Positions 4,554 to 9,197 of a stretch of DNA of 64,000 nt are shown here, in pieces. The notes beneath the pieces are model-generated. The model searched no databases and was not told the DNA's origin. It worked only from the letters and a program-made list of their open reading frames with translations. The translations under genes were made by a program, and so were the position numbers. The stretch is from Streptomyces albidoflavus (GTDB lineage: Bacteria; Actinomycetota; Actinomycetes; Streptomycetales; Streptomycetaceae): positions 135,618-199,617 of the forward strand of contig NZ_JOII01000017.1 in NCBI RefSeq assembly GCF_000719955.1, written 5' to 3'. Every line of letters begins with the position of its first letter. Position 1 is the stretch's first letter.

Positions 4554-5903
4554 TCAGGCGGCGGCGGGCGCTTCCTTGGCGTCCAGTTCGAAGCTGGTCG
4601 CGTTGTCGTACGCCGTGCGGTCGAGGATGTTCTCGCGCGCCGAGACGAGGACCGGGACGAGGGCCTGGCCGGCCACGTTGGTGGCGGTGCGGATCATGTC
4701 CAGGATCGGGTCGATGGCGAGGAGCAGGCCGACGCCCTCCATGGGCAGGCCCAGGGTGGAGAGGGTCAGGGTCAGCATGACCGTGGCGCCGGTGAGTCCG
4801 GCGGTGGCGGCGGAGCCGACGACCGAGACGAAGGCGATCAGCAGGTAGTCGGTGAGGCCGAGCTGGATGTCGAAGATCTGCGCGACGAAGATCGCGGCGA
4901 TCGCCGGGTAGATCGCGGCGCAGCCGTCCATCTTGGTGGTGGCACCGAAGGGCACCGCGAAGGAGGTGTACTCCTTCGGCACGCCGAGCCGCTCGGTGAC
5001 CTTCTGGGTGACCGGCATGGTGCCGACCGAGGAGCGGGAGACGAAGGCCAGCTGGATCGCGGGCCAGGCGCCCTTGAAGAACTGGACCGGGTTGAGCTTG
5101 GCGACGGTCGACAGCAGCAGCGGGTAGACGCCGAAGAGGACGATCGCGCAGCCGATGTAGATGTCGGCGGTGAAGGTCGCGTACTTGCCGATCAGGTCCC
5201 AGCCGTAGGTGGCGATGGCGCTGCCGATGAGGCCGACGGTGCCGATCGGGGCGAGGCGGATGACCCACCACAGGGCCTTCTGGAGCAGGCTCAGCACGGA
5301 CTCGCTGAGGGCGAGGATCGGCTGCGCCTTCTCACCGAGCTGGAGCGCGGCGATACCGGCGACGGCGGCCATGAAGACGATCTGCAGCACGTTCAGCTCG
5401 GTGAACGGCGTGATCACGTCGGTCGGGATGATCCCGGTGAGGAAGTCGATCCAGGAGCCGGTGTTCTCCGGCTTGGCGCCGTCCTTCGGGGTGAGGCCGG
5501 TGCCCGCGCCCGGGTTGGTGACCAGGCCGATGACGAGGCCGATGGCGACCGCGATCAGCGAGGTGATCATGAACCAGAGCAGCGTGCGGGAGGCGAGCCG
5601 GGCGGCGTTGTTCACCTTCCGCAGGTTGGTGATGGAGACCAGGATCGCGAAGAAGACGAGCGGGGCCACGGCCAGCTTCAGCAGGCCGATGAAGACGCCG
5701 CCGACCTGCTCCAGCGTGGTGACCAGCCAGTCGATCTGCTGGCTGCGGGCGAGCCAGCCGAGGAGCACACCGAGGACGAGGCCGCCGAGTATCTGCGCCC
5801 AGAAGGGGATCTTCGGTATGCGGGAGCCGGTACGGGGCTGCCCGGCCCCTCTGGCCTGGGCGTCCTCGGGGCTGGGCTCGGAGGCAGGGTTCTGCGCGGA
5901 CAC
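4554..5903 (-). CDS. dicarboxylate/amino acid:cation symporter (DAACS family)
   Basis: The 449-residue symporter is of the GltP/DctA/TcyP fold. Diagnostic stretches are the serine-rich re-entrant loop SRSSVGTMPVT, FAVPFGATTKMDGCAAIYP, and the C-terminal transport core ending LLLAIDPILDMIRTATNVAG. It would import an acidic amino acid, dicarboxylate or cystine with a cation. The chosen start is the GTG at 5901-5903, because GGAG lies seven bases upstream; a GTG six bases earlier is too close to it. A cysteine-containing leader peptide and a strong hairpin lie in the 340 bases upstream, which makes a TcyP-like cystine transporter a reasonable guess. Confidence 0.9.
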   Translation of the reverse strand: MSAQNPASEPSPEDAQARGAGQPRTGSRIPKIPFWAQILGGLVLGVLLGWLARSQQIDWLVTTLEQVGGVFIGLLKLAVAPLVFFAILVSITNLRKVNNAARLASRTLLWFMITSLIAVAIGLVIGLVTNPGAGTGLTPKDGAKPENTGSWIDFLTGIIPTDVITPFTELNVLQIVFMAAVAGIAALQLGEKAQPILALSESVLSLLQKALWWVIRLAPIGTVGLIGSAIATYGWDLIGKYATFTADIYIGCAIVLFGVYPLLLSTVAKLNPVQFFKGAWPAIQLAFVSRSSVGTMPVTQKVTERLGVPKEYTSFAVPFGATTKMDGCAAIYPAIAAIFVAQIFDIQLGLTDYLLIAFVSVVGSAATAGLTGATVMLTLTLSTLGLPMEGVGLLLAIDPILDMIRTATNVAGQALVPVLVSARENILDRTAYDNATSFELDAKEAPAAA

Positions 5904-5962
5904 GGACACACTCCGGTGGGATGCGGTGGGGGTGGGGGACGAAGGGCTGTGCCCGGGGCACG

Positions 5963-5994
5963 CGCTCCCGCGCGGTGCGAAGCGCGCGGGAGCG
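5963..5994 (-). promoter_or_regulatory. hairpin in the leader between uORF and symporter start
   Basis: CGCTCCCGCGC at 5963-5973 pairs perfectly with GCGCGGGAGCG at 5984-5994, an 11-bp GC stem with a 10-base loop. On the minus strand it lies about 130 bases after the leader-peptide stop and 60 bases before the symporter start. The position suits an attenuator or a translation-control element; its function is inferred. The rest of 5904-6124 holds no other gene that I can support. Confidence 0.5.
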
Positions 5995-6124
5995 GACGTA
6001 CGGGATGACCGTGCGGCCGGGCGTCGTGGGCGGTGCCGGTGGCTGAGAGCCCCGAAGGGCCGGGCCCGGGCGGCGGGGTTGAGCGGCGTGACGCGGTCGT
6101 GCGTCGGCCCCCGCCGGGCGGGTC

Positions 6125-6247
6125 TCAGGTGGTGCGGCAGAGCGCCGGACGGCGACACGCCGCCGAGACGCGGCGGCAGAGGTCGACGTGCAGACGCGCC
6201 ACGAGCGGGGTGCTCCTGGCCTGGCGGTGCGCGGCTGCGGTCATCAT
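6125..6247 (-). CDS. 40-residue leader peptide (RLHVDL type) upstream of the symporter
   Basis: A short gene starts with ATGATG and encodes 40 residues. The central part is LVARLHVDLCRRVSAAC and the tail is RRPALCRTT. The core R-L-H-V-D-L followed by S-A-x-C matches, from memory, the small 'putative leader peptide' family found in actinobacteria ahead of sulfur-metabolism and transport genes. It has three Cys codons (residues 24, 31 and 37). There is no Shine-Dalgarno sequence, and the predicted transcription start is a few bases before the ATG, so it may be leaderless. The symporter start lies 221 bases downstream. Ribosome stalling at Cys codons could report cysteine supply; that is inference. 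Confidence 0.75.
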   Translation of the reverse strand: MMTAAAHRQARSTPLVARLHVDLCRRVSAACRRPALCRTT

Positions 6248-6254
6248 GGCGGAT

Positions 6255-6284
6255 ACGTTAACACCGGTACTTTGGGAACATCAA
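6255..6284 (-). promoter_or_regulatory. predicted promoter of leader peptide-symporter unit
   Basis: On the minus strand TTGATG (6284-6279) and TAACGT (6260-6255) are separated by 18 bases, a good match to the vegetative sigma consensus in a locally AT-rich patch. The transcript would begin within about eight bases of the leader peptide ATG. Confidence 0.6.
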
Positions 6285-6357
6285 AGGACTTCTTTGGGGA
6301 GTGGGGAAAGCCTCACGCGCCCCCTGCCCGCGCCGCACGCTCCCCGGGCACGCGAAA

Positions 6358-6408: not shown

Positions 6409-6708
6409 TCAGCCGGACTTGCCCGCGGTGGCGGCCGCGTCGACGGCGGCGTCCTCCTGGCTGCGGTTGGCGTCGAGCCTGGCCTTGGTGCGGTCGACCT
6501 TGGCCACCACGTTCACCGAGGCCTGGTCGCGGTCCTTGCGGAGGGCGACGAAGCTGATGGGCGCCGAGATCACCATGGCCAGCAGGAGCATCCACAGGAC
6601 GTTGGAGCCGCCCACGCCCTTGGGCACGATCCCGAACTGGACCAGCAGTCCGACGACCACGAAGCAGGCGGCGAAGATCCCGAAGCGCTTCAGGGTGTAG
6701 CGGAGCAT
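6409..6708 (-). CDS. DUF4229 small membrane protein
   Basis: The 99-residue protein begins MLRYTLKRFGIFAAC. It has two membrane segments (about residues 8-28 and 34-56) separated by a short turn, then a charged tail with ALRKDRDQASVNVV and an Ala-rich end. This is the layout of the actinobacterial DUF4229 family, whose function is unknown. The ATG at 6708 was chosen because it precedes the first membrane segment directly; a longer upstream reading frame has no family resemblance. It is followed by a hairpin terminator and seems to be a single-gene unit. Confidence 0.75.
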   Translation of the reverse strand: MLRYTLKRFGIFAACFVVVGLLVQFGIVPKGVGGSNVLWMLLLAMVISAPISFVALRKDRDQASVNVVAKVDRTKARLDANRSQEDAAVDAAATAGKSG

Positions 6709-6843
6709 GAGGAATCCACTCTTCCGGTCAACAGGGCCCCACAGGGGCGGGCGCATCCAGTGAAACACGGGCCCCCGAGGCGGCCACCCGCAGGGGGCCG
6801 GTGTCCGGCATTCCAGGCATCCGCCGCCCGGCGCGGCCACGGC

Positions 6844-8741: not shown

Positions 8742-9197
8742 TCACTCCTCCTCAGGCAGCTCCCCCACCCGGTTCTCCCACTTGGTGGAGAGGACGACGG
8801 TGGTGCGGGTGCGGGAGACGCCCCGGGTGCCGGAGAGGCGGCGGATGGTGCGCTCCAGGCCGTCGACGTTGCCGACGCGGACCTTGAGCATGTACGAGTC
8901 GTCGCCCGCGATGAACCAGCAGTCCTCGATCTCGTGCAGGTCGCGCAGGCGCTGGGCCACGTCCTCGTGGTCGGCGGCGTCCGAGAGGGAGATGCCGATG
9001 AGCGCGGTGACGCCGAGGCCGAGCGCCTCCGAGGCGACGGTGGCGCGGTAGCCGGTGATGACCCCGGCGGCCTCCAGCCGGTTGATGCGGTCCGTGACGC
9101 TCGGCCCGGAGAGCCCGACGAGCCGGCCCAGCTCGGCGTAGGAGGCCCGGCCGTTCTCCCGGAGCGCCTGAATGAGCTGCCTGTCCACCGCGTCCAT
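8742..9197 (-). CDS. Lrp/AsnC-family transcriptional regulator
   Basis: The 151-residue protein has an N-terminal helix-turn-helix (MDAVDRQLIQALRENGR, then AELGRLVGLSGPSVTDRINR) and a C-terminal RAM ligand-binding domain with the usual DDSYMLKVRV and a closing TTVVLSTKWE strand. It probably forms octameric or dimeric complexes and senses an amino acid. It starts at the ATG at 9197. A strong promoter with a short inverted repeat GTTC-TCGCG-GAAC (9222-9234) lies just upstream, which would allow autoregulation. It lies within the menaquinone gene group, but a link to that pathway is only positional. Confidence 0.92.
   Translation of the reverse strand: MDAVDRQLIQALRENGRASYAELGRLVGLSGPSVTDRINRLEAAGVITGYRATVASEALGLGVTALIGISLSDAADHEDVAQRLRDLHEIEDCWFIAGDDSYMLKVRVGNVDGLERTIRRLSGTRGVSRTRTTVVLSTKWENRVGELPEEE

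Follow-up and report, generated by a model that had tools for sequence, protein, structure and literature searches.

The window, by which we mean the whole 64,000-nt stretch of DNA that was analysed, carries a short leader open reading frame (ORF) ahead of a gene for a DAACS symporter, both on the minus strand. A DUF4229 gene lies upstream of the leader on the same strand (6409-6840). The features of the locus are as follows:

4554..5903, minus strand: DAACS (SDF, PF00375) symporter gene, Pfam SDF; GTG start at 5903, alternative start at 5909
5904..6124, minus strand: C-rich untranslated stretch of 221 nt in which the scans showed neither a terminator-like site nor an Rfam match
5911..5914, minus strand: Shine-Dalgarno sequence GGAG of the symporter
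6125..6247, minus strand: leader ORF of 40 codons; ATG at 6247, second ATG at 6244, stop at 6125-6127
6155..6157, minus strand: cysteine codon TGT of residue 31, the proposed sensing codon
6176..6178, minus strand: cysteine codon TGC of residue 24
6255..6260, minus strand: -10 hexamer TAACGT, ending 7 nt before the ATG
6270..6286, minus strand: palindromic operator CTTTGATGTTCCCAAAG, its 5' half overlapping the -35 hexamer; it agrees in part with the genus consensus
6279..6284, minus strand: -35-like hexamer TTGATG, by inspection
6292..6296, minus strand: third half-site CAAAG, 5 nt before the palindrome

The earlier note on this DNA had described a 40-codon ORF with an RLHVDL core and three cysteine codons, and exactly such an ORF is present at 6125-6247, on the minus strand. 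Read from 6247 to 6125, its product is MMTAAAHRQARSTPLVARLHVDLCRRVSAACRRPALCRTT, with cysteine codons at residues 24 (TGC), 31 (TGT) and 37 (TGC); the plus strand of this interval encodes nothing comparable. The distance of 221 bases given for the gap between the leader stop and the symporter GTG at 5903 was likewise correct, and becomes 215 with the alternative GTG at 5909. In the six frames of the window, the core together with the conserved cysteine (the narrow form of the pattern) occurs once. This form appeared in none of 60 simulated 64-kb sequences (first-order Markov), and a broader form had a mean of 0.08 occurrences per sequence. The earlier note held the gene to be too short for most annotation pipelines. 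Of six proteins found to bear the peptide, a single one carries the name "putative leader peptide"; four are annotated as "hypothetical protein", and the sixth is unnamed.

As orthologues we used the 80 best symporter loci from a scan of genome contigs, all of which are from Streptomyces. A position-based scan placed the core, in the form [RS][RL]H[VI]DL, no more than 700 nt upstream of the symporter in all 80 orthologues as well as in the window. Core and conserved cysteine were found together upstream of 79 of the 80, compared with 0 of 1,600 Markov-resampled upstream sequences; the broad core form occurred in 1 of these 1,600. L079 is the only orthologue without a cysteine at the conserved column, and at L087 and L100 the symporter match begins before the leader stop. 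Residue 24 is a cysteine in 81 of 81 Streptomyces symporter leaders, window included. When 150 genomes of the same genus were searched with the peptide, every genome gave some match at E<=1, paralogous leaders included, and each of the 30 best loci of this search (30 of 30) had the symporter no more than 600 nt past the leader core. The earlier note had suggested looking for the same peptide beside DAACS genes in relatives, and both searches found it there. Across the class, the symporter was present at E<=1e-80 in 49 of 197 genomes, including 9 of the 16 same-genus genomes of the sample, and 27 of the 30 best class-wide symporter loci have the leader (own genus 9/9; families f17 5/5, f19 11/11, f30 1/1, f37 1/2). 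The f37 case (L272) is doubtful since its stop abuts the symporter match, and at L271, L274 and L280 no leader was found within 600 nt of the symporter. Judged by these comparisons, the leader ORF is real and its conservation is more general than the earlier note claimed.

The window peptide matched the NCBIfam family NF042934 ("putative leader peptide") with 19.1 bits (E 0.00075), short of the cut-off of 27, over leader residues 15-31 and profile positions 3-19 of 19. On this score the peptide was not placed among the curated members. The leaders in genomes G009 and G027, both of which precede the symporter, exceed this cut-off with 32.8 and 31.3 bits. The match of the window peptide to NF042936 reached 17.6 bits against a cut-off of 45. 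With E<=1e-4 as the limit, 131 of the 197 genomes in the class sample had a member of the NF042934 family, as did 61 of its 90 genera. We compared 70 leaders: the best match of each of 30 other same-genus genomes, that of each of 30 class-sample genomes (10 families, with three genomes in the own genus), and 10 from this genome. The window leader fits the fixed-spacing core R-x-[HA]-[VI]-D-L-x-R-...-C, and the spacing was equal in 70 of the 70 leaders, the fixed spacing being part of the reading rule; in 60 of 60 fetched family matches, a cysteine stood at that place. The conserved residues were retained as R in 69, D in 70, L in 70, R in 69 and C in 70. The weight that had been given to three cysteine codons needs correction: only the TGT of residue 31 is common to the family, residue 24 has an equivalent cysteine in just 38 of the 70 leaders, and the conserved core does not extend to residue 37. 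By its core, the window leader is a close variant of this actinobacterial "cis_reg_atten" leader family.

The NF042934 matches of this genome were read in the correct strand and the next proteins were tested against profiles, with the following outcome:

L001: cysteine dioxygenase (Pfam match)
L002: sulfatase (profile match)
L003: SsuE FMN reductase (above its cut-off)
L004: sulfite/nitrite reductase domains (profile match)
L005: ABC permease (best NCBIfam match SsuC, sub-threshold)
L006: rhodanese (profile match)
L007: cysteine synthase (above the cysKM cut-off)
L008: family-5 (peptide-type) binding protein (profile match)
L009: the DAACS symporter of the window

The leader family had been described as an actinobacterial one tied to sulfur and cysteine genes, and its relatives in this genome do precede such genes. 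A weak NF042934 match in the same genome, L015 (peptide HLSRRLHVDLAYACSALC), has the TGT codon and no clear target. Poly-Cys or Cys-rich leaders of the RRAVDLCRVAGCCCCCC type were seen at L232, L233, L235, L236, L239 and L261; wherever a following frame could be read, it resembled a sulfurtransferase. The poly-Cys and single-Cys types are tied together by an R-x-A-V-D-L-C-R core and the TGT column, which are common to both.

The codon 8 positions past the leucine of VDL, which in the window leader encodes the cysteine of residue 31, reads TGT throughout the 70 family leaders compared (70 of 70). It is also TGT in all 80 symporter leaders with a cysteine there (79 of 79 without the window) and in 27 of 27 class-wide symporter leaders, sets that overlap in lineage and partly in loci and are not independent trials. 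The background ratio of TGT to TGC is 4:153 in the 80 symporter genes and 8:79 in coding-like frames of the window, and the other cysteine codons in 60 leaders from other genomes comprised 24 TGT and 86 TGC. The codons next to the TGT vary, as do the arginine, aspartate and leucine codons across the 70 leaders. Since the profile search reads protein alone, it did not select the codon. On the simplest reading of the invariant codon, translation at residue 31 would depend on UGU being decoded slowly, by wobble, through tRNA-Cys(GCA).

The leader had been said to follow a good promoter. A strict sigma-70 consensus scan found none and missed the -35-like hexamer, but TTGATG-18-TAACGT is present by inspection, and its -10 element belongs to a conserved TANNGT box. 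Among 81 promoters (the 80 orthologues and the window, with L111 not parsed), 80 show a TANNGT box whose distance from the following ATG or GTG is 7 nt in 70, 6 nt in 9 and 5 nt in 1. The start codon is ATG in 66 and GTG in 14, and is in frame in 79 of 80. In S. lividans, the available part of the source gives a mean of 6.3 nt from the -10 element to the 5' end and a share of 17% leaderless transcripts (PMC8079986). Because TANNGT stands 5-7 nt before the start codon, the leader mRNA is predicted, on the spacing reported in that excerpt, to be leaderless. At one locus, L143 (genome G018, around 1501-1560), the leader is missing while the operator and promoter are kept; here the symporter itself starts with an ATG at the leaderless position. 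As a natural leader deletion with an ATG at the leaderless place, this locus supports both the position of the promoter and leaderless starting.

The pattern CAAAG-N5-CTTTG-N7-CAAAG occurs at 6270-6296 with 0 mismatches. An exact CTTTG-N7-CAAAG lies before the -10 element in 76 of the 80 parsed leader promoters. In this 7.1-Mb genome the palindrome is found at two places, in the symporter leader promoter and upstream of cds1. A reversed control likewise occurs at two places; thus the single-genome count proves nothing, and the operator rests on comparison between genomes. There, CTTTGRG-N3-CYCAAAG was present in 80 of 101 same-genus genomes, usually once, whereas the reversed control turned up in 2 of 101. 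The copy in the window departs from this stricter consensus. Thirty sites were fetched, one per genome: 14 adjoin cds1, 15 adjoin the symporter and 1 lies in a recA-like frame. On reading its translation, this frame (L155, 759-3017, plus strand) has an apparent intein-like insertion. The cds1 protein of this genome scores 606.6 bits on the NCBIfam L-cysteine desulfhydrase Cds1 model, above the threshold of 600. At the 30 best cds1 loci, the exact site lies upstream of 14, and a site with at least 9 of 10 bases upstream of 17; by the latter rule, 13 of the 30 cds1 loci showed no palindrome upstream. With 2 mismatches allowed, a loosened triple half-site pattern matched this genome 4 times, at 3 places, and one of these has no explanation.

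The two kinds of site differ in their position relative to the promoter. At cds1, a TANNNT hexamer follows the operator by 37-38 nt wherever a site is present (17 of 17 loci); the operator would accordingly be centred near -58 relative to the predicted start. The symporter operator is centred near -31 and covers the -35 element. In promoter logic, a site centred near -58 is that of an activator and a site over the -35 element that of a repressor. From this geometry we infer that the cds1 operator would serve as an activator site and the symporter operator as a repressor site. The exact palindrome was found at 0 of 21 class-wide symporter loci outside the genus, so that the operator layer looks genus-specific. 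Relative to the open-licence literature, the invariant TGT of the leader family and the operator common to the symporter and cds1 are new here. The earlier note names neither of them, and is likewise silent on the strand and on the leaderless geometry. The open-licence literature on the NF042934 family was not found to mention a DAACS target, an operator shared with cds1 or the invariant TGT, and a paper on the S. coelicolor transcriptome (PMC4895711) does not mention leader peptides, attenuation, cysteine, or upstream or small ORFs.

As to the factor that might bind the operator, the S. coelicolor sulfur regulator NdgR was rejected, its motif, [GT]T[CT]CAC..GGAC in the available part of PMC4340878, not matching the site. 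A gene of the Lrp/AsnC family at 8742-9197 of the window (minus strand), near an apparent menaquinone cluster, is a neighbour of the locus and a candidate regulator. Reading the translations around cds1 in this genome brought no obvious neighbouring regulator to light; a DeoR-like frame lies tail-to-tail with cds1. In the cds1 upstream regions (L164-L193), a stretch resembling GTTTATGCAGGTG is found between the operator and the -10 element in the 17 site-bearing loci, and several palindrome-free cds1 loci keep a related GTTTGYGCAGGTGAG. This stretch suggests a second bound factor at cds1.

The symporter is a member of the SDF family (348.8 bits, gathering threshold 27.9). BLAST against its E. 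coli relatives gave 147 bits for TcyP, 164 for GltP and 155 for DctA, each 29-30% identical, and a tree with long branches left its position unresolved. The earlier note had suggested that the carrier is TcyP-like and takes up cystine; since the scores of TcyP, GltP and DctA are comparable, the first part is not shown by homology. It is conceivable that the symporter carries glutamate, aspartate or C4-dicarboxylates and that the leader merely links it to sulfur status. Its best NCBIfam scores, 206.7 bits for DctA and 177 for GltP (both far below cut-off), point in this direction, as do the best-scoring solved structure, which is an aspartate transporter, and the arginine kept in TM8, which in GltPh reads the side-chain carboxylate. 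We nevertheless find such a substrate rather unlikely, given that the operator is common to the symporter and an L-cysteine desulfhydrase, that a leader with a cysteine codon precedes the symporter at 27 of 30 class-wide loci, and that the substrate region itself resembles that of TcyP. The symporter has KMDGCAAIYPA in TM7 and DPILDMIRTATN in TM8, where E. coli TcyP has QNGCAGLYPA and EPLIDMGRTALN. The one-residue insertion in TM7 (GCA), followed by YPA, and the acidic-Pro pair in TM8 are thus common to the two proteins, and are absent from GltP, DctA, SstT and two paralogues. These paralogues, the two other PF00375 genes of this genome, share 46% identity with E. coli DctA; neither leader nor operator was seen in the stretch fetched around them. 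A TM7 pattern anchored on FGAT was matched in 78 of the 80 orthologues, all reading KMDGCA(A/S)(I/V)YP(A/S), and in 19 of the 30 class-wide symporters. The earlier assignment to cystine is supported indirectly, by the shared operator and the TcyP-like residues, not by a closer overall relation to TcyP. Because the identities are equal (29-30%) and the tree is unresolved, the assignment to cystine or cysteine rests mainly on regulation. Import of cystine or cysteine is, in our judgement, the most likely function.

How the leader would act on the symporter raises the question of whether the peptide or the RNA is the conserved element. In a classical codon-counting attenuator, cysteine codons and alternative RNA hairpins would matter and the peptide sequence would be incidental. 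Consistent with such a device, CCGCTG in the leader (Cys-Arg-Cys codons) and CAGCGG in the tail occur together at 44 of 81 loci, at a modal distance of 12 nt past the stop (neither at 25 loci, one alone at 12), and CAGCGG is found in 50 of 81 tails compared with 3.8 expected from shuffles. A weak signal came from the opening 45 nt of the tail, with which the leader pairs better than synonymous controls in 13 of 81 loci, the window among them (p 0.03 against synonymous recodings), and some leaders elsewhere are poly-Cys, as in RRAVDLCRVAGCCCCCC. Yet these pairings depend on lineage and are not generally above synonymous controls, the window has neither member of the CCGCTG/CAGCGG pair, and across 70 leaders in unrelated contexts the peptide retains R, D, L and R despite variation in their codons. 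Pairing with the tail at 45-90 nt exceeded synonymous controls in 0 of 39 cases. We consider a pure codon counter unlikely. Pairing of the leader with the Shine-Dalgarno sequence was rejected, since it did not exceed that of synonymously recoded leaders (median z -0.17; p<0.05 in 5 of 81). A conserved read-out structure was rejected too: the hairpins obtained by consensus folding of two clades (44 and 21 sequences) were lineage-specific and showed little covariation. The window gave no Rfam match at gathering thresholds. The tails are C-rich, with a median C-G skew of 0.16 compared with 0.03 upstream. Given this composition and the lack of a terminator-like site, the read-out may be Rho-dependent or translational.

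A chance ORF lying over conserved promoter and RNA elements would account for CCG CTC GTG and TCC being nearly fixed at the nucleotide level in Streptomyces. This account is hardly credible, as the start alternates between ATG and GTG (66/14) at nearly the same place, the ORF is conserved across the family, and the codons for H, V and D vary synonymously while the residues stay constant. In the Streptomyces symporter leaders these codons are CAC 47 and CAT 33, GTC 57 and GTG 22, and GAT 48 and GAC 32; by contrast, CTC, GTG and CTG towards the 5' end hardly vary, nor does TCC towards the 3' end. Thus, the leader is under amino-acid constraint together with some nucleotide constraint. Conservation at the amino-acid level would also be expected of a stable microprotein acting in trans, which we regard as very unlikely: the leaders lie in cis before the symporter or sulfur genes, their N- and C-terminal parts vary, and one locus without a leader still has the promoter.

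We favor, with a probability of about 0.6, the interpretation that 6125-6247 (minus strand) is a cysteine-responsive leaderless attenuator ORF that governs a cystine/cysteine-type symporter, with an additional operator layer in Streptomyces. The interpretation given in the earlier note is supported in part. Ours starts from what is read directly in the sequences, namely the conserved ORF, the promoter geometry, the invariant codon and the shared operator. From these we infer ribosome stalling, the direction of the response, the substrate, the regulator and the read-out. Translation of the leader would begin at the very start of its leaderless mRNA. Under a shortage of Cys-tRNA, the ribosome would slow at the invariant UGU of residue 31, and the conserved R-x-H-V-D-L-x-R residues of the nascent chain would probably assist. 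Such a stalled ribosome would alter the downstream RNA or its exposure to Rho, and expression of the DAACS symporter would increase. In Streptomyces, a second, transcriptional layer would be provided by a putative cysteine-linked regulator that binds CTTTGRG-N3-CYCAAAG. With abundant cysteine, one factor could shut import through the site overlapping the -35 element and turn on breakdown via cds1. The logic of the leader and that of the operator would agree provided that the factor is a repressor at the one site and an activator at the other.

This cysteine-responsive attenuator would give the transporter, which 49 of the 197 sampled class genomes encode, a likely substrate and mode of control, and predicts a small regulon of an importer and a cysteine desulfhydrase with a defined operator. 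It pins the leader family on one codon, so that "codon or nascent peptide?" becomes a one-base question. A wider and more tentative proposal, which we hold to be possible and somewhat doubtful, is a class-wide cysteine-sensing arrest peptide, as opposed to a plain codon counter, composed of R-x-[HA]-[VI]-D-L-x-R and one slow UGU 8 codons past the leucine, together with the opposite-sign operator pairing. If the arrest-peptide reading is true, decoding of a single codon would report the charging of Cys-tRNA for the whole sulfur regulon.

The window leader can be compared with several known systems. With NF042934 cis_reg_atten it shares the core and terminal cysteine, and it differs by a score below the cut-off. 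Mycobacterial polycysteine leaderless short ORFs were reportedly described by Canestrari et al. in 2020. In the parts of the sources available, these ORFs are leaderless, have cysteine codons close to their 3' end and are followed by cysteine genes (PMC9031893, PMC13236596, PMC4633059, PMC9094748). Like them (NF042936, Ms4527A), as far as those excerpts go, the window leader is predicted to be leaderless and presumed to sense cysteine. Unlike them, it has no run of contiguous cysteine codons, its cysteines being isolated at residues 24, 31 and 37, and it has a single shared TGT past the HVDL core and a symporter as target. According to the available text on S. lividans TK24, leuL, ilvL, trpL, metL and others are short and often leaderless, several lacking a clear terminator, and none of the 8 leaders listed there has an RxHVDL core or a DAACS target (PMC8079986). 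In the same excerpt, metL, called methionine-dependent and located before metNIQ, ends in RCMCRRMCAF with three cysteines (Table 4); it may be a cysteine sensor.

E. coli TcyP, also a DAACS symporter, is 30% identical to the window symporter and has in common with it GCA(A/G)-x-YPA in TM7 and the acidic-Pro pair in TM8. For control of an importer and a desulfidase by one cysteine-linked regulator, the portion of the source at hand describes a precedent in E. coli CyuR (cyuPA; PMC9040844). There, by the same partial source, cyuPA forms one operon activated by CyuR, whereas here the importer and desulfhydrase genes are apart (PMC9040844). Beyond the cyuPA/CyuR arrangement as that portion presents it, the Streptomyces operator overlaps the -35 box of the symporter, and a leader peptide is added.
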